Part shown: positions 27,288-40,648 of the stretch, piece after piece
Layout: every line of letters begins with the position of its first letter
Position numbering within the stretch: position 1 is the first letter of the stretch
Notes under the pieces: generated by a model
Told to the model about the DNA's origin: nothing
The model's database searches: none
The model's input: the letters and a program-made list of their open reading frames with translations, nothing else
Program-made: the position numbers and the translations under genes
Assembly (NCBI GenBank): GCA_021737975.1
Contig: JAIPCZ010000001.1
Span: 1-64,000 of the forward strand
DNA from: Polaromonas sp.
Lineage (GTDB): Bacteria; Pseudomonadota; Gammaproteobacteria; Burkholderiales; Burkholderiaceae_C
Direction of reading: 5' to 3'
Length of the DNA: 64,000 bases

Positions 27288-28244
27288 TCAGGCTCCCACC
27301 GAGCACTCGGGCACCGGGGTGTGCAGCGCCTGACCGGAAGTGCCCGCTTGCATATTGGCAAAAGCCAGATCGGCCATGGCCTGGCGTGTTTGCAGGGTGG
27401 CGCTGGCCATGTGCGGCGTCAACACCACGTTGGGCAACTTGCGCAGCGCCTCGGGCACACGCGGCTCATTGGCATACACGTCCAGCGCCGCACCCGCAAT
27501 GGTGCCCGCCTCGAGCGCCTGTATCAGCGCCTCTTCGTCGACCACGCTGCCGCGCGCCACATTGATCAGGTAAGACCTGGGACCCAGGGCTGACAACACC
27601 TCGGCGTTGATCAGGTTCCGGGTGCCTGCCCCGCCGGGGGTGATCACCACCAGATAGTCAACCTGGGCGGCCAGCGCCTGTGCCGTTGGATAGAACGTGT
27701 AGCCAGATTCGGGCTTGCTGCTGCGTGCGGTGTAGGCGATCGACATGCCAAAACCGCCGGCCCTGCGCGCGATGGCCTGGCCGATGCGACCCAAGCCCAC
27801 AATACCGAGTCGTGCACCAGAGACTTTTTGCGCTAGCGCCATGGGGCCATTCAACCACTCTCCGGCGCGCACAAAACGGTCCGCCTGCGGGATGCGACGC
27901 CCGATCGACAAGACCAGGCCCATGGCAAGGTCGGCCACATCGTCGGTCAACACGTCCGGCGTATGGGTCACCGCAATGCCCTGTGCATTGGCAGCCGGCA
28001 CGTCAACGCCGTCGTAGCCCACGCCGAACACCGACACCACCCTGGCATTTGGCAATTGCGCCAAAAGCGCCCCGGTCACCACCGACTCACCCGAAGCGGC
28101 CAAGCCCACAATACGTGGCGCAAGCTGTGCAAAGGCCGTTGGATCGGTTTCATGCGTGCGCTCGTGCACGGTGTAAACCCGTTGCAGCGCCTCTTGGTAG
28201 AAGGGGTGCAATTTGGCAACCGCCAAAATATCTGGCTTGATCAT
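27288..28244 (-). CDS. D-isomer-specific 2-hydroxyacid dehydrogenase (2-ketogluconate/hydroxypyruvate reductase type)
   Basis: GLGRIGQAIARRAGGFGM, LINVARGSVVDEEAL, NVVLTPHMASAT. Confidence 0.88.
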   Translation of the reverse strand: MIKPDILAVAKLHPFYQEALQRVYTVHERTHETDPTAFAQLAPRIVGLAASGESVVTGALLAQLPNARVVSVFGVGYDGVDVPAANAQGIAVTHTPDVLTDDVADLAMGLVLSIGRRIPQADRFVRAGEWLNGPMALAQKVSGARLGIVGLGRIGQAIARRAGGFGMSIAYTARSSKPESGYTFYPTAQALAAQVDYLVVITPGGAGTRNLINAEVLSALGPRSYLINVARGSVVDEEALIQALEAGTIAGAALDVYANEPRVPEALRKLPNVVLTPHMASATLQTRQAMADLAFANMQAGTSGQALHTPVPECSVGA

Positions 28245-28407
28245 TTCAAATCTCCTGACGATAAAACAGTTGTTGGACAGCACGGTCCGAAAATGTGGAA
28301 AAAATGGCAAGCCTAGTGGTTGCCGTCACATGCAGTGTTGTTTGATGATGGCTCGATCAATCAAAATTTTGTGAGCATTTCAGGCCGGCGCGCGGGTTCG
28401 TGGCGGC

Positions 28408-29616
28408 TTATGTCAAAGCGGCAACCGCCTGGCCAATCCGCTGGCACCCGTCCTCGATCACTTCGGCGCTTGTGGCGATGGACATGCGGAAGTAGGGCGA
28501 GAGACCATACACCGAGCCGGCAATCACGGCCACGCCAACGCCCTCAAGCAAGTACATCACCACGTCCATATCGGTTTCGATTTTCTTGCCCTGTGGCGTG
28601 GTGCGACCGATCATTCCCGCGCAGTTGACGTACAGATAAAAGGCCCCGCCGGGCTTGCGACAACTGATCCCGGGGATGGCGTTGAGGATGCTGAGTGCCA
28701 GGTCACGCCGGTCTTTATAGGTTCCGACCCAATCTGCGATAAAACTTTGTTCGCCCTGCAAGGCCGCCAAGGCTGCGGCCTGGCTGACCGAACTGGCGTT
28801 GGACACGGATTGCGATTGCAGCATGTCCAAGGCCGCAATCAACTCAGCGGGGCCGGCGGCCCAGCCGATACGCCAGCCTGTCATGGCATAGGTTTTTGAT
28901 ACCCCGTTGATCACCAGCGTCCGGGCTTTGAGTTGCGGCTCGATCGCCACCAGATGCGGGTTGTCGCTGGACTCGAACCGGATGTGTTCGTAAATGTCGT
29001 CTGTCATCAACAGCACATGGGGATGACGCAACAGCACATCCGCCAGGGCGCGCAGATCGGCGGCGCTGTAGGTCGATCCCGTGGGGTTGGTCGGCGAATT
29101 CAGGATCAGCCAGCGGGTTTTGGGGGTGATCGCAGCCTCTAGCTTGGCCGGCGTGAGCTTGAATCCCTCAGACTCCAGGCAAGTGACGATGACCGGCTCC
29201 CCCTGGCAGGCGAGGGTCATGTCGGGATAGGACACCCAGTAAGGGGCTGGAATGATGACCTCGTCGCCAGGCTCCAGGGTGACGGACAAGGCGTTGTAAA
29301 TGGCGTGCTTGGCACCAATGGTGACGATGATGTCCTTGGGCAAATAGGACAAGCCGTTCTCACGCTGAAACTTCTCGGCAATGGCTTCCCGCAGCGCCAG
29401 GGTACCGGCGGCCTGGGTATAGCGTGTTTCGCCCCGCTTGATCGCCTCACAAGCGGCAAGGCAGATGTGCTCCGGTGTGTTGAAGTCCGGTTCGCCCACG
29501 ACCAGGTTGACAATGTTTTTTCCAGCCCTGCGCAAGGCGGCGGCGCGGTCCTGGGCAGCACTGCTTGGCGAGGGTTTGACCCGACTGAGGCGCTCAGCAA
29601 TGTGAATAGTGCTCAT
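28408..29616 (-). CDS. Pyridoxal phosphate-dependent aminotransferase (class I, aspartate aminotransferase-like)
   Basis: VGEPDFNTPEHI, NSPTNPTGSTYS, NGVSKTYAMTGWRIGW. Confidence 0.93.
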   Translation of the reverse strand: MSTIHIAERLSRVKPSPSSAAQDRAAALRRAGKNIVNLVVGEPDFNTPEHICLAACEAIKRGETRYTQAAGTLALREAIAEKFQRENGLSYLPKDIIVTIGAKHAIYNALSVTLEPGDEVIIPAPYWVSYPDMTLACQGEPVIVTCLESEGFKLTPAKLEAAITPKTRWLILNSPTNPTGSTYSAADLRALADVLLRHPHVLLMTDDIYEHIRFESSDNPHLVAIEPQLKARTLVINGVSKTYAMTGWRIGWAAGPAELIAALDMLQSQSVSNASSVSQAAALAALQGEQSFIADWVGTYKDRRDLALSILNAIPGISCRKPGGAFYLYVNCAGMIGRTTPQGKKIETDMDVVMYLLEGVGVAVIAGSVYGLSPYFRMSIATSAEVIEDGCQRIGQAVAALT

Positions 29617-29796
29617 GTTAGACTCCTTTTTCGATATGACATGCGCTGGAGAGTACGCAAGCTTGTCACTTCACGCAAAGACAAATTTCGTCTGGCCGGA
29701 TAGTGACAGCTTATGTTGTTTCAAAAAATTCAATGCAAAAAAGCTGCTCGTGACCTACTTCGAAGGACTGCATCGATCGCCAATTGAGACAATTTC

Positions 29797-30729
29797 ATGA
29801 ATCTGCGACGTTTAAGGTATTTCGTAAAAATTGTCGACATTGGCAGCCTGACCCAATCTGCGGACGTGCTCCACATCGCCCAACCGGCATTGAGTCAGCA
29901 AATCGCCACGCTTGAGGGGGAGTTTCGCCAACAGTTGTTGGTTCGAACCAAACGTGGCGTCACGCCAACGGAGGCGGGCCTGATCCTGTACCGTCATGCC
30001 CAGATCATTCTTCGCCAGCTTGATCAAGCCCAAAGCGATGTCAACAACGCCGGCAAGAGCCTGTCAGGCCAGGTGGCGGTGGGCCTGGCACCCGGCACGG
30101 CCGCCTCGGCCCTGGCCTTGCCACTGCTGAAGACCATACGCGCCCGCCACCCTTCGATCCTGCTTTATCTGAATGAGAATTTTGGAACCACGCTAAGCGA
30201 GCTGGTGATGAATGGGCGCATGGACATGGCGGTGCTCTATGCCGGGAAGAATGTTGTCCATGGACTCTCCTACCAAGCTTTGCTCAAGGAGCAGCTATTT
30301 TTGGTGGCGCCACAGACCTCCCCTGGTCTTCCAGAGCAAATTGACTTGTCTGAGGTGAGCAAGCTTGAACTATTGTTGCCACGACCGTACAACTATCTCA
30401 GAAAATACGTGGACGAGGCCTTCTCTGGCTTGACCAAGAGCGCCAGGGTGGTGGCGGAAATTGAGTCAGTGGCCACCCTCAATGCCGCCGTGGCGGCGGG
30501 TCTGGGCGCCACCATCCTGCCAGAGTCGGCTGCGCGCGCCATGGCCATTTCGATCCAGGCCCAACTGTGCAGGATCGTGTCTCCGGTCATCGAGGTGCCT
30601 TTGGCCTTGTGTGAGTCGGACCACTTGCCGTTGTCCGAGCCCGCACAGGCGGTAAAAGACATTATTCTGGAGCTGGTGGAGGCGCAGAATTTCGACTTTG
30701 GCTATGGCAAGCAGGAAGAGGAAAATTGA
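29797..30729 (+). CDS. LysR-family regulator (Nac-like)
   Basis: MNLRRLRYFVKIVDIGSLTQSADVLHIAQPALSQQIATLE winged-HTH. Confidence 0.9.
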   Translation: MNLRRLRYFVKIVDIGSLTQSADVLHIAQPALSQQIATLEGEFRQQLLVRTKRGVTPTEAGLILYRHAQIILRQLDQAQSDVNNAGKSLSGQVAVGLAPGTAASALALPLLKTIRARHPSILLYLNENFGTTLSELVMNGRMDMAVLYAGKNVVHGLSYQALLKEQLFLVAPQTSPGLPEQIDLSEVSKLELLLPRPYNYLRKYVDEAFSGLTKSARVVAEIESVATLNAAVAAGLGATILPESAARAMAISIQAQLCRIVSPVIEVPLALCESDHLPLSEPAQAVKDIILELVEAQNFDFGYGKQEEEN

Positions 30730-30804
30730 GCTGAAAGTCTCCGGCCCGCAATTTTCTGGCGCGCATGTCGCAGAGCGGCCGCCGGTAGCGCGTCAAGAGT
30801 GGTT

Positions 30805-31578
30805 TCAGTTCAACAGCCGCATTCGGGAGATCGGAACGATCCGCCCGTTTCCTGATTCGACTTCCGCCCGGATCGCCAGCGCGTTCTCGACAGCGCCCGG
30901 CGTGTCACCATGCAGCAAAATGGATTGCACCTTGATGGCAAGTTTTTTCCCGTTGATGCTGGTGATGACGCCATCGTCCAACAGGCGTTTGACCCGCTGC
31001 AACACCTGGCCCTGGTCTTTGATCACCGCGCCGGGTAATTTTCTTGGAACCAGATCGCCATCATCGGTGTAAGCGCGATCGGCCAGGAACGTGGCGGCCA
31101 CCCTCAGGCCAAATTTGTTGGCGGCACGTTCGATTTGCGTGTTTGTGGACACCGAGATGATCATGTCAGGATTGAACTCAGAGACCGTGCGCACCAGCGG
31201 TTCGGCCAGCGCAAAATCTGCTGCGGCCATGTTGCCCAAGGCGCCATGAAAGCTCATGTGCGTGACACGCGCACCAGCAACCGAGGCAATACCGGCCAGC
31301 GCACCCAGTTGATAAAGGACATACCTGGACACATCCGCCGGATCGCATTGCATGGGACGACGCCCAAACCCCAACAGGTCAGGAAATCCGACATGTGCGC
31401 CCAGGTCAACGTCTTGGGCCAAGGCCAAACGAACGGTCTTGTCCATGATCACCGGATCGCCCGCATGAAAACCGCAGGCAACATTGGCCGAAGTGATGAC
31501 TTTCAGCAAGCCCGCGTCGTCGCCCATGGTGTAGTCGCCAAATCCCTCGCCAATATCTGCATTCAGATCAATATCCAT
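30805..31578 (-). CDS. pxpA: 5-oxoprolinase subunit PxpA (LamB/YcsF family)
   Basis: MDIDLNADIGEGFGDYTMGDDAGLLKVITSANVACGFHAGDP, HMSFHGALGN, LHGDTPGAV. Confidence 0.93.
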   Translation of the reverse strand: MDIDLNADIGEGFGDYTMGDDAGLLKVITSANVACGFHAGDPVIMDKTVRLALAQDVDLGAHVGFPDLLGFGRRPMQCDPADVSRYVLYQLGALAGIASVAGARVTHMSFHGALGNMAAADFALAEPLVRTVSEFNPDMIISVSTNTQIERAANKFGLRVAATFLADRAYTDDGDLVPRKLPGAVIKDQGQVLQRVKRLLDDGVITSINGKKLAIKVQSILLHGDTPGAVENALAIRAEVESGNGRIVPISRMRLLN

Positions 31579-31617
31579 AGAGCCGCCTTCCGTTACAAGA
31601 TTTCATCACGCCGGTCA

Positions 31618-32043
31618 TCAGCGCGCAGGACTCAACACCAGAACCGTGGCGCCATAACCCAGCAAATCGCCTGTGCTGGCCACCAGGCTTTTCACCAAGC
31701 CACTCCCGGAGGCAAGGACAGGGACATAGATCAGGCCAATTTTAAGAATGCCGACGACATCCCCGTGCCTGACGTTGCTGCCAGCCGTGACAAATGGCGC
31801 ACGGCGCATTGGATGAGTGGCCAGGAAAATACCTGCGGTCGTGGTTTTGACAGCGGTCTCTGGCGAAGCCTGCTGCGCCGCAGCGCCGGGTGACCCTGCC
31901 CCGGCGATATCTGTTATGTCGACATGGTGAGCGTCTGACACGGTTAACCTGACGTGCTCCCCAGGACGGGACAGTTCAAGACTGCGCATGCTGGAGGTTT
32001 TAAGCCAGGTTGAAAGTTGTTGAAGTTCGTTCAATTCCATCAA
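31618..32043 (-). CDS. BCCP-like biotinyl/lipoyl-fold protein without biotinyl-lysine motif
   Basis: Domain aligns with AccB (PFVTAGSNVRHGDVVGILKIGLIYVPVLASGSGLVKSLVASTGDLLGYGATVLVL), but EAMKM is absent. Confidence 0.7.
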   Translation of the reverse strand: MMELNELQQLSTWLKTSSMRSLELSRPGEHVRLTVSDAHHVDITDIAGAGSPGAAAQQASPETAVKTTTAGIFLATHPMRRAPFVTAGSNVRHGDVVGILKIGLIYVPVLASGSGLVKSLVASTGDLLGYGATVLVLSPAR

Positions 32044-32058
32044 ATTGCTCCGCGGTGT

Positions 32059-33057
32059 TCAAGACTGGGACAGCCGGTAGAGTGCCACGAGCTGGCGCAA
32101 CTTGCCGAGATAATCGCGCACGGCATGCAACGCCAGCCGGGCATCGTCATATGACGCCGGCACGAAACGCAAGCGGGTTCCGGGGAGGGCCTGGGCCAAT
32201 CGCCAGAGATCGGCCTCGATCACCGTGCCAATTTTCGGATAACCACCTGAGGGCTGCGCATCGCGCAGCTGAATGATGGGTTGCCCGTTGTGTGGCACCT
32301 GAATCACGCCCGGCACGATGCCGTGCGAACGCAGCTCCAGGGTCTGTTTTGGCTTCAGCGCGGTACCCGCCAAACGATAACCATAACGATCACTTTGAGC
32401 CGTTATTTTCCAGTCCGTCGTCCAGAAGGCGTTGAGGGAATCCTCCTCATAACAATCATATTCAGCAGCAGGCATGACACGAACAAAGGTCTGTCCGGAT
32501 TGCACCTCATCACCAAGAGGCAGCGCATATGGCGGGGGCTCGACACCCAGTTCCAAGGCGTCCGATTCGGGGCGAGCGCAACCGGGCTCGGTCACTGTGC
32601 CCGCACTGAGTATGTCCCCTTGCCGCAAGGCCCGCCCATGATGCCCACCGAATTCGCCGCGCAGCTGCGTGCTGCGAGAGCCCAAAACCACCGGCACATC
32701 GACGCCACCAGCCAATCCGAGATAGGCACGCGCCCCATGATGTGCTGTCTTCAAGCTCAGTTCCTGGCCCTTTTTGGCATGGTGTACCCAATAGGGTGGA
32801 ATGTCCTTATCGTCAAGTTCAGCGCCTGCATCGGCACCTGTCAACGAGAAACACATGTCCTCAAGAAATCGCACCTTGAACGGAAACATCGGGACTTCGA
32901 TGGCTGCAGCGTCTTCTGAATTTCCCAGCAGAATATTGCCAACGGCAAGCGCAAGCTGATCCATCGCGCCAGCGGTGCCCACACCATAACGCAGGTAGTT
33001 CTTGCGCCCAATATCCTGAACGCTGGCCAATCCGCTGGTAGACAGGATTTCTATCAT
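32059..33057 (-). CDS. pxpC: 5-oxoprolinase subunit PxpC (biotin-dependent carboxyltransferase/AHS2 family)
   Basis: STSGLASVQDIGRKNYLRYGVGTAGAMDQLALAVGN, GVPGVIQVPHNGQPI-like IVPGVIQVPHNGQPIIQLRDAQPSGGYPKIG. Confidence 0.92.
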   Translation of the reverse strand: MIEILSTSGLASVQDIGRKNYLRYGVGTAGAMDQLALAVGNILLGNSEDAAAIEVPMFPFKVRFLEDMCFSLTGADAGAELDDKDIPPYWVHHAKKGQELSLKTAHHGARAYLGLAGGVDVPVVLGSRSTQLRGEFGGHHGRALRQGDILSAGTVTEPGCARPESDALELGVEPPPYALPLGDEVQSGQTFVRVMPAAEYDCYEEDSLNAFWTTDWKITAQSDRYGYRLAGTALKPKQTLELRSHGIVPGVIQVPHNGQPIIQLRDAQPSGGYPKIGTVIEADLWRLAQALPGTRLRFVPASYDDARLALHAVRDYLGKLRQLVALYRLSQS

Positions 33058-33728
33058 TTGATGACCTTTTCTGCGATGAATCGAACCATATCGCCCGGTG
33101 CGAGCAGCGCGGGTGGATGTTGTTGTGGTTCAAAAAACGACATGTCGGTGTGACCAATGGTGTTCCATCCGCTAGGTCCCGCCGAGGCAGACACCCCTGT
33201 TTGTGCACCGCCAATCGATACCGCGCCACCCGGCAAACCAAGCACGGGGACCTTGCGACGCGGTGTGGCAATGATCGGATTCATGCCGCCGAGATAACAG
33301 TATCCCGGGTGGCTGCCCAAGGCAAACACCGTGTAGAGCGGTTCCGTGTGAATCCTCACGATTTCATCAATTGTCAGCCCCGAGTGAGCCATGACATCGG
33401 CCATGTGCGGCCCGAATTCGCCACCATAAATCACGGGCAGTTCGACAATTCGCCCGTCAAGCAACAGTTCCTGGCCACTGTTCCAGGCTGCAATCAGGTC
33501 GCCCGTGATGGTTGCCAGTTCCACCGGCGGCTCCAAAAAAACAAGCATGAGATTGCTCATGCCAGGAACGGCTTCCCTGACCCAGGGCCAGGTCTCGGCC
33601 TGTCGTGCCAACGACCAAATCTTTCTCTGAACGGCCAGATCCATGTCGCCGGGTGCCTCGAAAAGCACACCTGTGGTGCCGAGAGGGCTTATTTTTGGTC
33701 GTGCGACAGAGTGGACTAGAGGTGCCAT
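33054..33728 (-). CDS. pxpB: 5-oxoprolinase subunit PxpB (AHS1 family)
   Basis: LPVIYGGEFGPHMADV, HTEPLYTVFALGSHPGYCYLGGMN, RRKVPVLGLPGGAVSIGGAQTGVSASAGPSGWNTIG; 4 nt overlap with pxpC. Confidence 0.92.
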   Translation of the reverse strand: MAPLVHSVARPKISPLGTTGVLFEAPGDMDLAVQRKIWSLARQAETWPWVREAVPGMSNLMLVFLEPPVELATITGDLIAAWNSGQELLLDGRIVELPVIYGGEFGPHMADVMAHSGLTIDEIVRIHTEPLYTVFALGSHPGYCYLGGMNPIIATPRRKVPVLGLPGGAVSIGGAQTGVSASAGPSGWNTIGHTDMSFFEPQQHPPALLAPGDMVRFIAEKVIK

Positions 33729-33787
33729 GGCGTATTGCGGTTAAGTGATCTCAGGGCATCCGCCTGCTTTGTTCAGGCAAACGATTT

Positions 33788-35143
33788 TCATGCGCATTGC
33801 TTCTGGATCAACAACTGTTCAAGATGGTGAATATTCGGACTGCCCCGGCAAAACGCCGGATCAGTCAAGACATCGTGGAGAAGAGGCATATTTGTCTGAA
33901 TGCCCCGGACATTGAATTGCTCCAGTGCCAATCGCATTCGAATCAGGGCTTCATTGCGGTCGCGCCCATGCACGATCAGTTTGGCAATCAAAGAATCGTA
34001 ATGCCTGGATATCACGCAACCTGCGGACACATGGGAATCAAGTCGAACACCGTACCCGCCGGGCGGGTCCCAAGCCGTGATTTTCCCCGGGCAAGGAATG
34101 CAGGTGTAGGGTTCTTCGGCATTGATACGACATTCAATGGAATGTCCATGGATTGAAATATCGGATTGCTGCAACCGGAGCACTTCGCCGGCGGCCACGC
34201 GGATTTGCTCCTGAACGATGTCAATGCCAAAGACCATTTCAGTGACTGGATGTTCAACTTGCAGGCGCGTGTTCATTTCTATGAAAAAAAATGCGCCCTC
34301 CTCGTACAAAAACTCGAAGGTTCCCACGCCCTGATAACCGATCAATTTGCAGGCTTCCACGCAGCGCTGGCCCACCTGGTTGACCAGTTCCGGCGAAATA
34401 CCTGGCGCAGGTGCTTCCTCGACCACTTTTTGATGACGCCGTTGCATTGAGCAGTCACGGGTGCCCAGCCAGAGCGCATGGCCATGGCTGTCGCACAAGA
34501 CCTGGATCTCAACGTGACGCGGACGCTCGAGGAACTTCTCGATATACAGCTCAGGGTTGCCAAAAGCCCGTCGCGCCTCCTCGCGTGTGATGGCGATGCT
34601 GTCCAGCAAATCTTCTTCCTTGCGGACGACACGCATGCCGCGTCCGCCCCCCCCGCCAGAGGCCTTGACGATCACGGGATAACCGATGTCTCGTCCGATC
34701 TGGAGTATTTGGGCGCTGTCTTCGGGCAGTGCGTCGTCCGGCCCGGGAACACAGGGCACTCCGGCCTGGCGCATGGCACGTTTGGCTGACACCTTGTCGC
34801 CCATCGTCCGCATCGCCGCTGGCCTGGGGCCGATGAAACTCAGTCCACTGGCTTCGACGCGCTCGGCAAATTCGGCGTTTTCTGACAGAAACCCATAACC
34901 CGGGTGAATGGCTTGGGCGCCGGTAATTTCGGCAGCCAGCAAAATCGCCGCCTGATTCAAGTAACTGCGCCCCGGCGCTGCGGGGCCGATGCAAATGGCC
35001 TGACCGGCAAGTTGCACATGTTTGGCGTCACGGTCCGCCTCGGAGTAGACGGCAACCGTTTGAATACACAATTCGTGGCAGGCGCGTTGAATGCGGACTG
35101 CAATCTCACCGCGATTGGCGATCAATACCTTGTCAAACATCAC
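33788..35143 (-). CDS. accC: Biotin carboxylase (AccC family)
   Basis: [83 protein letters not shown]. Confidence 0.95.
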
Positions 35144-35158
35144 ATCGGCCTCTCGTTG

Positions 35159-35644
35159 TCAAGCTTGCCCGGATGGCGCATCCTGTTTACCCAACATGAA
35201 AAGCGCCTGTCCGGCGTCCACTTCCTGGCCATCCTCGGCCAGAATCGCGACGATCCTGCCGTCGCGATCCGCTTCGATGCTTGTAAATATCTTCATGGCT
35301 TCAAGCAGGCCCAGCTTTTGACCCTTTTGAACGGCATCGCCCATTTGCACGAAGGGCGCGTCGTTCGGTGCGGGCGCTCGACTGAACATTCCGAACATGG
35401 TCGCCTTCACAACATGCACGCTTGAGTCAGCCTGACGCGGACCGGGCAGAGGCGCCGGACTTTTTGAGGGTACCTCCGGGGCATCGGCAGCCGTTTCGAT
35501 TGCCACGGGCGCCGGGCGTTCTTGAGCCCCTGGATGTTGATCACGCGACAGGCGCAATCGGCATCCGTTTTCCTCCAGTTCCAGCTCTGCCAAATCTGAA
35601 GCCGAGGCCAAGTCGATCAGCGACTTAATCTTCTGAAGATCCAT
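35159..35644 (-). CDS. accB: Biotin carboxyl carrier protein (AccB family)
   Basis: C-terminal domain with LGLLEAMKIFTSIEADRDGRIVAILAEDGQEVDAGQALF. Confidence 0.92.
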   Translation of the reverse strand: MDLQKIKSLIDLASASDLAELELEENGCRLRLSRDQHPGAQERPAPVAIETAADAPEVPSKSPAPLPGPRQADSSVHVVKATMFGMFSRAPAPNDAPFVQMGDAVQKGQKLGLLEAMKIFTSIEADRDGRIVAILAEDGQEVDAGQALFMLGKQDAPSGQA

Positions 35645-35879
35645 TCTTGTCTGCCCTGTTAAACGTATTCGCACTGCAGCCATGCCACAGCGCTCACCCA
35701 AGTCGAAAACATTTGCCGTTCCTTTTTGCGCATTCTTGTGAGCGCCACGTCGAAACCCTTTGCATGGGGCGTAAAGCTAACACAGACTACCCCGCAACAG
35801 GCCACATGAAATTTGAATGGTGTCAATCAAAGTTCCAATGGTTGGGGCTGGCGGCGCAGACCGGAATTTTGTATGAATC

Positions 35880-35896
35880 GAGTCATAAGTTGACTC
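35880..35896. promoter_or_regulatory. Inverted repeat in the divergent accB/SDR intergenic region
   Basis: GAGTCA-TAAGT-TGACTC, perfect 6 bp arms. Confidence 0.5.
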
Positions 35897-36050
35897 TATC
35901 CCTTCACACGTAATTCGTCTTGTTCGGCGGCGTCTTATGCTCATAAGATCGGGCAGGAAACTGAAACCCGCGATATTCCGTGAACGCCACCGGCGGTGTG
36001 ATCAGCCCGGCCATCGAGGTCGCCACAAGCCAACACAACAAGGTGATGCC

Positions 36051-36803
36051 ATGCCCTTTTCTGACTACAAGACTGCCCTTGTCACCGGAGCGTCCTCCGG
36101 CATAGGTGCCGCGATCGTGGAGCGCTTTTGCCTGGCAGGGCTTGAAGTGCATGCCCTGGCGCGCAGTGCAGGGCCCTTGCATGATCTAGCCAAACGTACC
36201 GGCTGTATCCCGCATGTCATGGATGTCTGCGACCTGCCGGCCGTGACCCGACTCACGCAGGAGGTGGAGTTTCACATCCTGGTCAACTGTGCGGGGATAA
36301 ACTTTCCGGGATCGCTTGTGGATGCACGGCCCGAAGAGGTTGACGCTGAAATCGGCGTCAACTTGCAGGCCGCCCTGCACTTGGTGCGCTTGACCATGCC
36401 CGGCATGCTGGCGCGCGACAGCGGTCACATCATCAATATCACATCGATTGCCGCCATCTACAACTTCGTTGGCAGCAATGCGCTTTATCACACCACAAAA
36501 GCCGCCATGCATATGCTGTCACGCCAGCTGCGCAACGATGCGATTGGCAAGCGTGTTCGGGTCACAGAAATTTGCCCCGGGCGGGTGGCAACAGATATTT
36601 TTGCCCATGTCAATGGCACCGACCCGGCAGTTGCCCGCGCGCAGTTCATTGACGGCTTTGAGTTGCCGCAGGCAACGGATATCGCTGATGCCGCCGCCTA
36701 TGCCGTCAGTGCCCCGATTGCTGTGAACATTTCACATCTGGAAATCATGCCCACGCTGCAAGTCCCTGGCGGACTGACGACGATCAAACCAGAACCCCGG
36801 TAA
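36051..36803 (+). CDS. SDR-family oxidoreductase
   Basis: ALVTGASSGIGAAIVERF, NCAGI, NITSIAAIYNFVGSNALYHTTKAAMHML. Confidence 0.9.
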   Translation: MPFSDYKTALVTGASSGIGAAIVERFCLAGLEVHALARSAGPLHDLAKRTGCIPHVMDVCDLPAVTRLTQEVEFHILVNCAGINFPGSLVDARPEEVDAEIGVNLQAALHLVRLTMPGMLARDSGHIINITSIAAIYNFVGSNALYHTTKAAMHMLSRQLRNDAIGKRVRVTEICPGRVATDIFAHVNGTDPAVARAQFIDGFELPQATDIADAAAYAVSAPIAVNISHLEIMPTLQVPGGLTTIKPEPR

Positions 36804-36855
36804 CCAACACGTTTCAGTTCGTTCACTTTCAGTCATCCATCAATAAGGATCCACC

Positions 36856-37521
36856 ATGTCGACCGGCGCACGCAAGAACCCATCAGCTCAACAAGCCATA
36901 CCAGCGGTCATCGATGAGCTTCGCACCCTCCAGGTTGCCTTGATCAGCGACCAATTCCATCGCCTGGTGGGTACGGGAGAGTTGAAAAAGTACGATTGCA
37001 GCACCGGCGTGATGGCGGGAACGGCGGTCACGGTGCGTGTTCGCCGTGGTGACAACCTCGCCATCTTGCGCGCGTTTCAGTATTGCCGCCCGGGCGATGT
37101 GATGGTCATCGATGGTGGCGGTGATACCAGCCAGGCCTTGCTCGGCGGCATCATGTCGCTGCATGCCCGCACCATGGGCCTGGCGGGCGTGGTCGTGGAT
37201 GGCGCCATCCGGGACGTTGCCGAGGTCAGCAAGCGGGATTTTCCGGTGTTTGCGCGCGGGCATATCCATCGCGGACCCTACAAGGACGGTCCTGGCGAAA
37301 TCAATGTCCCCGTCTCGATTGGCGGGATGACGGTCATGCCGGGTGACATCATCATGGGCGACGATGATGGGTTGCTGGCGTTCTCACCGGATGAGGCCGA
37401 GGAAGTGATCGCCAAAGCCAGAATCCAACAGCAAAAGGAGGAAGCCACCATCCAGATGATTCTTGAAAACCGCTGGGATCTTTCGTTTGTTGACGCGCTT
37501 GAGGCGCGTTGCAACAACTGA
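36856..37521 (+). CDS. RraA-family protein (4-hydroxy-4-methyl-2-oxoglutarate aldolase-like)
   Basis: GDVMVIDGGGDTSQALLGGIMSLHARTMGLAGVVVDGAIRDV, PGDIIMGDDDGLLAF. Confidence 0.88.
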   Translation: MSTGARKNPSAQQAIPAVIDELRTLQVALISDQFHRLVGTGELKKYDCSTGVMAGTAVTVRVRRGDNLAILRAFQYCRPGDVMVIDGGGDTSQALLGGIMSLHARTMGLAGVVVDGAIRDVAEVSKRDFPVFARGHIHRGPYKDGPGEINVPVSIGGMTVMPGDIIMGDDDGLLAFSPDEAEEVIAKARIQQQKEEATIQMILENRWDLSFVDALEARCNN

Positions 37522-37731
37522 TGCGATGCAGCGGCGCATAGGCATTGCATATTCTTATACAGCCAGACGAAAAGCGTCTTTTCCACGATGACCCGTTGCG
37601 AATAGCATTTAGATCAGGAGTCATTTTGTTCTACTTGTTTGCCGCTCAAAAGCAATGTTTTTCGTAGGTTTGCAAGCAGGCCGCCGATTTGACTTTTTGT
37701 TCAGCCCCTAACCATTCATGAGGAGTATTTG

Positions 37732-38739
37732 ATGAAATCGACCCGACGTGTGATCATGACGGCCATCCTTGCCGGTGCCGCTGCGGCAAGCTGGAATTTG
37801 CCAGCAGTTGCTGCACCCATTCAACTGAATCTGGCGGACGTATTGCCTGAAACCAACTTCATGGTTCAAAACGCCAAGCGTTTTGCCGATGAAGTGGCCA
37901 AACAAACCAACGGGGATGTGGTGATCAACATTCGCCCGGGCGGCGCTCTTGGATTCAAGGGGCCTGAACAGCTGCGCGCGGTGCGTGATGGCATGGTTCC
38001 CATGGCAGATATCCTGCTGAGTCAGCAAATTGGCGACGACTCCTTTTTTGGCATTGAGGGCGTTCCCTTCCTGGTGAACTCGCCGACTGACCTCAGGGCA
38101 TTGCACAAGTTCGTCCGACCGGAATTCGACAAATTGGTCGCCAGCAAGTACAACCAGAAAATTTTGTACATGGTGCCCTCACCCGGACAGTACCTGTTCC
38201 TGAAAACCAAGACGGACAAGATCGATGGCTTGAAAAACATCAAGATTCGGGGCGCGGACAAGATGACCGTTGATATCGTGAGCTCCATCGGCATGTCTGG
38301 TGTTCTGATCCCGTTTGGCGAACTGATTCCCGCACTGGCATCCGGCCGTGTGGACGGTGTCGCAACCTCGGCCACCACGGGTGTTGATGCCAAATTCTGG
38401 GAATTCATGAAGTATGTTTATTCAACCAACCACACCTGGTCGACCAACATGGTCAATATCAACCTGGACTCATGGAAAAAAATCCCGCCCCAGCACCAGA
38501 AGACCATCGAGGCAATTGCCGCAAAACTAGAACCCGAGTTCTGGGAAGTGTCCCGCAATGCCGATGGTGAAAGCCTGAAAAAGTTGACTGCGAACGGAAT
38601 GGAAGTGGTGAACGTCACGCCGGACATGTTCAAGGACATGCGCAAAATGGCGGCGCCATTGCTCGATGACTATCTGAAGCGCGCGCCAGATGCTGCGCCT
38701 CACATCAAGAACTACCTGTCGGCCACAGGGAGAAACTGA
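37732..38739 (+). CDS. TRAP transporter substrate-binding protein DctP
   Basis: Signal peptide, LNLADVLPETNFMVQNAKRFADEVAKQTNGDV, LASGRVDGVATSATTG. Confidence 0.9.
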   Translation: MKSTRRVIMTAILAGAAAASWNLPAVAAPIQLNLADVLPETNFMVQNAKRFADEVAKQTNGDVVINIRPGGALGFKGPEQLRAVRDGMVPMADILLSQQIGDDSFFGIEGVPFLVNSPTDLRALHKFVRPEFDKLVASKYNQKILYMVPSPGQYLFLKTKTDKIDGLKNIKIRGADKMTVDIVSSIGMSGVLIPFGELIPALASGRVDGVATSATTGVDAKFWEFMKYVYSTNHTWSTNMVNINLDSWKKIPPQHQKTIEAIAAKLEPEFWEVSRNADGESLKKLTANGMEVVNVTPDMFKDMRKMAAPLLDDYLKRAPDAAPHIKNYLSATGRN

Positions 38740-38741
38740 AA

Positions 38742-39323
38742 ATGAAACAGGTGCTCAGCGGTCCCGACCACCGGTCTGACGCGATTGAGATCATCCAGAG
38801 GGGAATTGATCGACTGTCGCTGATTTCAGCTTATCTGGCTGCCGGGTGTCTGGGCCTGCTGACCCTGTTGACACTGTGCCAGGTTGCACTCGGCGTGCTC
38901 TCTAAAATCAGTGATGTTTTCCCAAGTGCTATCGCCGTGGGCTGGGAATACAGCGCTTATTTGATGGGTACCGCCTTCATGCTCGGCGGGGCTCTGACCA
39001 TGCGCGCTGGCATGCAGATTCGCGTCGAAATTGTGATGCGAATGGTGGGCAGCCGCGTTCAGCGCCTGATGGAGATTGTGGCCTCCGCGATTGGTGCGGG
39101 ATTTGTCTCCTTTCTCGCCCTCAGCCTGGCGCTGTTTGCACTGGACTCATATCGTTCGGGTCAGGTGTCGGGTGCCAGTTTCACACCGCTGTGGATTCCG
39201 CAGGCTACTTTAGCCCTTGGGACCACGGTCTATGCCTTGCAAAGCATCATGCGGTTTCTTGCCGCCGTGCTGCGCATGCCACTGATCAATGAGTCATTCA
39301 AAGTGGCTTCAGCGTCGGAATGA
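38742..39323 (+). CDS. TRAP transporter small permease DctQ
   Basis: Hydrophobic, WEYSAYLMGTAFMLGGALTMRAGMQIRVE; between dctP and dctM. Confidence 0.88.
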   Translation: MKQVLSGPDHRSDAIEIIQRGIDRLSLISAYLAAGCLGLLTLLTLCQVALGVLSKISDVFPSAIAVGWEYSAYLMGTAFMLGGALTMRAGMQIRVEIVMRMVGSRVQRLMEIVASAIGAGFVSFLALSLALFALDSYRSGQVSGASFTPLWIPQATLALGTTVYALQSIMRFLAAVLRMPLINESFKVASASE

Positions 39324-39334
39324 GGGCCTGCTAA

Positions 39335-40648
39335 ATGAGCTACGTTTTCCTTACCCTGTTCCTCGCGCTGTTCGGTTTTCTTGGCGGCGGTGTCGGAATC
39401 GGCATCTCGCTGGCATCAACGGCCATGGTGATGATTGGCGTCTTTACCGACATTCCCATGGGCAAGCTGATTGCTCAGCACTCGTTCAACATTCTGTCCA
39501 ATGCCGATCTGGTGGCACTCCCGCTGTTTATCCTGATGGGTGAGTTTTTGTTCCGCACCAATTTGTCACGAACGCTGTTCAACGGCTTGGCGCCTTGGGC
39601 CGGCCTGCTGCCCGGGCGCTTGTTGCATGTGAATGTGCTGGCCTGTTCCATTTTTGCGTCCATCTCCGGCTCATCTGCCGCCACGACGCAGGTGGTGGGC
39701 AAGATGACGCTGACCGAGCTTCGCCGTCGTGGTTACGGCGAAGACATCGTCGTCGGCAGCTTGGCGGGTTCGGGAACACTTGGCTTCCTGATTCCACCCA
39801 GCACCGTCATGATCATCTACGGAGTTCTGGCTGAAGAATCCGTGTTGCGGCTGTTTACCGCCGGATGGATACCCGGGTTATTGCTGGGCGCGTGTTTCAT
39901 GGGCATGATCATGTTCCTCACCTGGCGCAACCCGGCACTGATCCCCGAATCTGAGCGCAAGTTGCGCCACTTGCCCTTCGCCGCGCGTGTTGCAGCGCTC
40001 AAGGAATTGGCACCGGCCATGTTCCTGATCATTTGTGTGATCGGTTCCATGTACGCCGGTGTGGCAACGCCCACCGAAGCTGCGGCGCTGGGTGTGCTGG
40101 GTGCGTTTGGCGTGGCAAAAAAACAAGGGGCGATCACCTTGGAAACCATCCGTGCGGTTGCCATTGGCACGGTTCAATCGTGCAGCATGATGGGCATGAT
40201 CATCGTCGGGGCCACCATTCTGGGTAGCGCAACCGCGGCGTTGGGCGTGCCCGATGCCGTGACCCAACTTGTCACCGAACTCGATCTGCCGCCGTTTGGC
40301 CTGATCGTCCTGTTGCTTTTGATGTATTTGGTGTTGGGCATGTTCCTTGAGGGTTTCTCCATGATCGCCACGACCCTACCCGTGGTGCTGCCGCTCATCA
40401 CGGCGGCTGGTTTTGACAAGATCTGGTTCGGGATTTTTATGGTGCTGGCGGTTGAGATGGCGCAAATCACACCACCGGTGGCGTTCAACCTTTCGATCAT
40501 TCAGGGTATCACCGGCATTCCGATGGGGCGCCTGTGGCGCGTCACGCTGCCCTTCCTGCTCACCATGATGTCATTCACCCTGCTGCTGGCGATCTTTCCG
40601 CAAATCGTGCTGTGGTTTCCGAATTATGTTTTGGGCATCGCCAGATGA
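39335..40648 (+). CDS. TRAP transporter large permease DctM
   Basis: SGSSAATTQVVGKMTLTELRRRGY, LGFLIPPSTVMIIYG, GVATPTEAAALG. Confidence 0.92.
   Translation: MSYVFLTLFLALFGFLGGGVGIGISLASTAMVMIGVFTDIPMGKLIAQHSFNILSNADLVALPLFILMGEFLFRTNLSRTLFNGLAPWAGLLPGRLLHVNVLACSIFASISGSSAATTQVVGKMTLTELRRRGYGEDIVVGSLAGSGTLGFLIPPSTVMIIYGVLAEESVLRLFTAGWIPGLLLGACFMGMIMFLTWRNPALIPESERKLRHLPFAARVAALKELAPAMFLIICVIGSMYAGVATPTEAAALGVLGAFGVAKKQGAITLETIRAVAIGTVQSCSMMGMIIVGATILGSATAALGVPDAVTQLVTELDLPPFGLIVLLLLMYLVLGMFLEGFSMIATTLPVVLPLITAAGFDKIWFGIFMVLAVEMAQITPPVAFNLSIIQGITGIPMGRLWRVTLPFLLTMMSFTLLLAIFPQIVLWFPNYVLGIAR

Follow-up and report, generated by a model that had tools for sequence, protein, structure and literature searches.

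The minus strand of the DNA analysed here (64,000 nucleotides from Polaromonas sp., hereafter the window) holds, inside an operon for a 5-oxoprolinase-like enzyme, a gene for a paralogue of the biotin carboxyl carrier protein (BCCP) that lacks the biotinyl lysine, and this K-less protein is almost certainly a conserved non-biotinylated subunit. Together with its relatives it forms a conserved family of bacterial pseudo-BCCPs which is, apparently, undescribed. To judge from its sequence, the protein could not be biotinylated, and the chances are about even that it belongs, as a non-catalytic subunit, to an extended PxpABC system of a 5-oxoprolinase-like, lactam-opening type; a role in assembly or gating, with PxpBC(A) as the main partner, is an equally balanced proposition.

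The Lysine-Free Protein

The K-less gene (31618..32040, minus strand) encodes 140 amino acids from an ATG at 32040. The open reading frame at 31618-32043 (minus strand) counts 141 codons from a TTG at 32043, which directly precedes this ATG; because the two codons adjoin and TTG-ATG recurs in the Gallionella homologue, the ATG is the likelier start, with the TTG also possible. Three parts are distinguished in the protein, namely an N-terminal BCCP-type domain (residues 1-35), a linker (36-60), and a BCCP-like barrel (61-140), which contains a His-Pro (HP) motif at residues 76-77 and Leu103 in place of the biotinyl lysine. The same succession of N-terminal domain, linker, and barrel with thumb is found in AccB-type BCCPs (TIGR00531). 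In fact, the protein is 25% identical to the AccB of its own operon over nearly the full length and from residue 1 onward (BLASTP, E=1e-9), the similarity including the N-terminal BCCP domain and the gaps being confined to the linker. The C-terminal domain aligns ungapped to that AccB, with GILKIGLIYVPV opposite GLLEAMKIFTSI, which confirms the reading of the preliminary description that the lysine of EAMKI has become a leucine. The profile of the N-terminal domain matches residues 21-86 of E. coli BCCP (4hr7_B; i-Evalue 1.9e-4), and the thumb of the K-less profile aligns ungapped with the E. coli protein.

The preliminary description also held that the rest of the fold pattern is kept, and the predicted structure agrees with it (AlphaFold, four-sequence alignment; mean pLDDT 80.6, about 91 for the C-terminal domain). 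Its best Foldseek match is the biotinyl domain of E. coli, 1bdo (TM 0.87 normalised by target, rmsd 1.3 Å), and together with the ungapped thumb alignment this indicates that the barrel-sandwich biotinyl domain with its thumb is retained. Between predicted strands 95-101 and 104-109, a hairpin turn at residues 102-103 occupies the place of the biotinyl lysine; a lysine at the hairpin turn, as in the lipoyl/GcvH domain, is absent from the K-less protein. What separates it from AccB-type BCCPs is the missing biotinyl lysine, the change of AMK to (I/V)Gx, and scores below the curated cut-offs (34.2 vs 115.2 bits for TIGR00531, 17.5 vs 22.1 bits for PF00364). With its defining lysine missing and these scores unreached, the protein is, on the evidence of its primary structure, no BCCP by function.

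Chance or misalignment as the source of the missing lysine is rejected by BLASTP, profile, and structure, and chance is further excluded because 45 relatives without the lysine have a common family signature. The nearby K100 was considered as a compensating lysine and rejected, a lysine being present there in only 9/45 relatives.

The Operon and its Surroundings

The operon is read on the minus strand in the order accB-accC-pxpB-pxpC-[K-less gene]-pxpA. The accB-like gene (35159..35701) encodes a biotinylatable BCCP with LEAMKI intact (TIGR00531 122 bits, cut-off 115; PF00364), and accC (33788..35143) a biotin carboxylase (TIGR00514 669 bits, cut-off 626.5; NF006367) which, aligned to 4mv1, is collinear from end to end with bacterial biotin carboxylases of solved structure; the operon has therefore kept the genes of a normal biotin pair. 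Homologues of PxpA, PxpB, and PxpC, the components of the PxpABC 5-oxoprolinase, are all present by profile matches: pxpB (33054..33728; TIGR00370 192 bits) is the CT_C_D half of a carboxyltransferase-like pair and a relative of YbgJ (5dud_B), the pxpC-like gene (32059..33057; PF02626, TIGR00724) is the CT_A_B half and a relative of YbgK (5dud_A), and pxpA (30805..31578; PF03746, NF003814) belongs to the LamB/YcsF family. Since the PxpC of the window scores 303 bits against an equivalog cut-off of 500, the enzyme is best called 5-oxoprolinase-like, with a putative substrate. In the assembly G000 (69.5% complete), the AccC of the window is the sole stand-alone AccC found, the other strong matches lying in frames that are 683 and 801 residues long.

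Compared with canonical PxpABC, the K-less clusters have an additional AccB, AccC, K-less protein, aminotransferase, short-chain dehydrogenase/reductase (SDR), and Nac-like regulator, whereas no K-less BCCP gene is found in the canonical clusters sampled (L091-L103). The BC, CT (CT_A_B + CT_C_D), and BCCP modules are also those of urea carboxylase/urea amidolyase; here, however, they are separate proteins, accompanied by PxpA and a second, biotin-free BCCP.

A larger cluster (27288-40648) surrounds the operon, with genes for a TRAP transporter and a glyoxylate-reductase-like protein, as well as several that recur in related loci. These are the Nac-like LysR regulator (29797..30729, plus strand; NF008410 477 bits), which recurs beside the K-less gene, the aspartate-transaminase-like aminotransferase (28408..29616, minus strand; NF004769 668 bits) and the SDR oxidoreductase (36048..36803, plus strand, open reading frame listed from 35937; PF00106), both recurrent in the cluster, and an RraA-family aldolase-like protein (36856..37521, plus strand; NF004850, PF03737), present again in several loci. 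This gene content could suit the breakdown of a hydroxylated lactam via a 4-hydroxy-2-oxoglutarate-like intermediate.

A Family Without the Lysine

The preliminary description had proposed aligning homologues from other pxp operons, and the absence of the lysine proves to be conserved. None of the 45 relatives collected from alpha-, beta-, and gammaproteobacteria has a lysine at the biotinyl position or an AMK motif (0/45), in a set assembled after removal of sequences with an (A/S/C)MK motif and with counts that are not independent, about nine of the members being close Rhizobium relatives. The position is taken by proline (16), histidine (10), leucine (6), glutamate (3), or others. In contrast, all 29 aligned BCCP partners from the same loci carry the lysine, and four more (L084-L087) have AMK by motif. 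The relatives have a signature of their own: the Met of AMK is replaced by Gly in 42/45, Pro is found at +4 in 42/45, an aromatic residue (Y/F) is present in the GYG motif in 43, and, at a site which by alignment to E. coli BCCP is the base of the thumb, His and Pro are each found in 44/45, HP being present in no partner. For example, the same operon is found in a Gallionella metagenome-assembled genome (L009), where the lysine-free protein is 49% identical to that of the window.

An unfiltered profile survey of 399 Pseudomonadota genomes gave bimodal scores. Eight matches of at least 84 bits, the window included, are all without the lysine, and the remaining 22 that were fetched (79.6 bits or less) all carry AMK; four matches from the enterobacterial family (G1095, G1067, G1130, and G1158; 75-78 bits) were left unfetched, with scores in the lysine-bearing range. 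This score gap argues that the motif filter hides no lysine-bearing member. Two further surveys supplied alphaproteobacterial and enterobacterial members, while in a single-protein survey of 399 genomes of the order, the loci inspected besides the window held lysine-bearing AccBs only. The family is also present on plasmids: a tblastn search returned 112 records, and each of the first 12 loci fetched has a lysine-free BCCP, 11 of them with a lysine-bearing BCCP alongside and one, Rahnella L050, without.

The K-less members match BCCP models weakly, and no matching NCBIfam or Pfam model describes them. They are named in public records as BCCP subunit, acetyl-CoA carboxylase, biotin/lipoyl-containing protein, or hypothetical protein, and no account of this bacterial family was found in a search of the open-access literature, which most subscription papers lie outside.

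Two other kinds of BCCP sequence were observed. Loci L117 (3660-4199) and L118 (3948-4433) encode a lysine-bearing BCCP with ESMK in place of EAMK. Plasmid pA of Rhodococcus pyridinivorans (L115, 4737-5228) encodes a BCCP-like protein without AMK and with Arg at the lysine position (VEVARLKMP), which has no pxp context and adjoins a carboxyltransferase combining PYC_OADA and HMGL-like domains.

Genomic Context of the Relatives

At least one pxp gene is present in the fetched stretch at 42/45 K-less loci, and none was found within the 10-15 kb fetched at L113, L121, and L128. At 32/45 loci, accC and a lysine-bearing BCCP gene lie beside the K-less gene. The direct neighbours vary, the K-less gene following pxpC or accC and preceding pxpA, pxpB, or an SDR gene; therefore, synteny singles out no one partner, and no gene fusion that would point to one was noticed among the loci read. 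The modules also recombine, as in L044, which has a second pxpBC pair, and L048, where accB-accC-K-less-SDR lies apart from pxpBCA.

The 11 enterobacterial loci form one clade of the K-less tree (99/97), and neither accB nor accC was found in their fetched stretches. These loci also carry the Nac-like LysR gene, the aminotransferase, and the SDR, with pxpABC in 10/11. An AccC search of enterobacterial genomes, in which Rahnella L050 was not included, found one stand-alone AccC in the housekeeping score range in nine genomes, with the other strong matches belonging to reading frames about 1200 residues long; in G1129 there is a second AccC, which is unlinked. In a tree of a small set of PxpC proteins (13 rows picked for similarity to the window), a branch with SH-aLRT 87 sets apart those whose loci lack a K-less gene.

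Origin and Selection

When the motif columns are left out of the tree, the 38 K-less rows still group in a single clade (bootstrap 100, SH-aLRT 91), and the loss of the lysine needs a single change; K-less and pxp-type BCCPs together are split (100/100) from 22 of the 23 other AccBs sampled, in an alignment of only 142 columns and with several long branches.

The K-less gene is under purifying selection. Among nine Rhizobium orthologues, pooled pN/pS is 0.286; the corresponding values are 0.370 (biotinylated partner), 0.158 (pxpB), and 0.132 (pxpA). By part, the values are 0.106 for the N-terminal domain, 0.454 for the linker, and 0.326 for the C-terminal domain, so that the N-terminal domain is the most constrained. 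Neither frameshifts nor internal stops, either of which the preliminary description would have taken as pointing to decay, were found in these nine orthologues.

Possible Roles of the K-less Protein

The explanation preferred here is that the K-less protein would act by docking and not by carrying. Its BCCP-type surfaces (the N-terminal domain and the rebuilt thumb/hairpin) would dock on PxpB/PxpC, and the bound protein would stabilise the PxpABC complex; where AccB/AccC are present, it would tether the complex to the BC-BCCP half or gate the access of the biotinylated BCCP. This is proposed because the docking surfaces of BCCP are kept while the biotin tip has been rebuilt. By description only, such a protein may be likened to AccE (epsilon), which, to our knowledge, is not derived from BCCP. 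AccE is a small non-catalytic subunit for biotin carboxylase assembly in actinobacterial acyl-CoA carboxylases (PMC11926652, PMC11001197). The placement on PxpBC follows from the nature of PxpB and PxpC, which as carboxyltransferase-domain homologues are likely docking partners of BCCPs, and from PDB entry 9yx5, in which M. smegmatis allophanate hydrolase subunits 1/2 (PxpB/PxpC homologues) are listed together with the BC-BCCP subunit AccA3; therefore, proteins of the PxpBC type can be found together with a biotin carboxylase. The retention of the K-less protein in enterobacterial loci without accB/accC likewise favours a role with PxpABC. The preliminary description had suggested either a scaffold for PxpB/PxpC or a decoy for AccC: the scaffold would fit better, whereas the decoy is weakened by the enterobacterial clade and by the nine genomes with only one stand-alone AccC.

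A more specific version, put forward tentatively, would make the K-less protein an obligate, BADC-like, biotin-free subunit of an AccB-AccC-PxpB-PxpC-PxpA lactam-opening enzyme, docked in the carboxyltransferase site where the biotinylated carrier would otherwise bind; the enterobacteria would have lost the biotin half and kept the pseudo-carrier alone as an activator of PxpABC.

The plant BADC proteins lack the biotinylation motif, are 25-30% identical to BCCP, and contact the BCCP thumb (PMC11926652). Like them, the K-less protein is a non-biotinylated BCCP homologue kept beside a biotinylated BCCP and a BC; in contrast to them, it is bacterial, encoded in pxp operons, and sometimes without a dedicated accB/accC. 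On the docking explanation it would be functionally like BADC, and its family apparently arose independently, being placed next to the proteobacterial pxp-type BCCPs in a tree that includes no BADC sequences. It is rather unlikely that the protein is a strict bacterial counterpart of BADC, that is, one forming hetero-oligomers with the biotinylated BCCP of its operon and gluing or inhibiting the BC-BCCP half, independently of PxpBC. The 32/45 relatives beside accC and a lysine-bearing BCCP, the identity to the partner (25% here, near that of BADC), and the BCCP-like character of the most constrained domain all agree with such a role. On the other hand, the clade of 11 loci without accB/accC and the nine genomes with a single stand-alone AccC weaken it, as they do the decoy, although enterobacterial K-less proteins could still use the housekeeping AccB/AccC.

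A direct part in chemistry or ligand binding, with the thumb His-Pro and the rebuilt hairpin forming a site with PxpB/PxpC or PxpA in place of the biotin tip, is improbable. The near invariance of the pair at the base of the thumb, and its absence from the partners, would be expected of such a site, but H/P pairs can be structural alone and canonical PxpABC functions without a K-less protein. We know of no solved BCCP that uses such a thumb residue in catalysis. More improbable still is a regulatory docking subunit for PII (GlnB/GlnK) that would tie the pathway to nitrogen status, a candidate reading drawn by analogy from E. coli and plants, where PII proteins bind BCCP (PMC11001197, PMC11926652), and in keeping with the Nac-like regulator of the cluster.

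Finally, that the protein is a relic, a duplicated BCCP which lost its lysine and is now drifting, is scarcely credible: divergence between lineages is high, with many pairs near 27% identity, but decay is rejected because the family is a single old clade that spans three proteobacterial groups and conserves a new signature, because the gene is under purifying selection, with open reading frames intact in tight operons, and because the predicted fold matches E. coli BCCP. The view of the preliminary description that the mimic serves a structural or regulatory purpose, and is not decaying, is upheld.

Biological Implications

The docking of a pseudo-carrier on PxpABC would be directly testable, given the small operon. 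For annotation, naming the relatives biotin carboxyl carrier protein or acetyl-CoA carboxylase predicts an impossible function. The results suggest that one class of PxpABC operon combines a full biotin carboxylase set with a pseudo-carrier, absent from the canonical operons sampled, and that bacteria, too, have evolved and conserved dead carrier domains, with an origin apparently separate from that of plant BADC.
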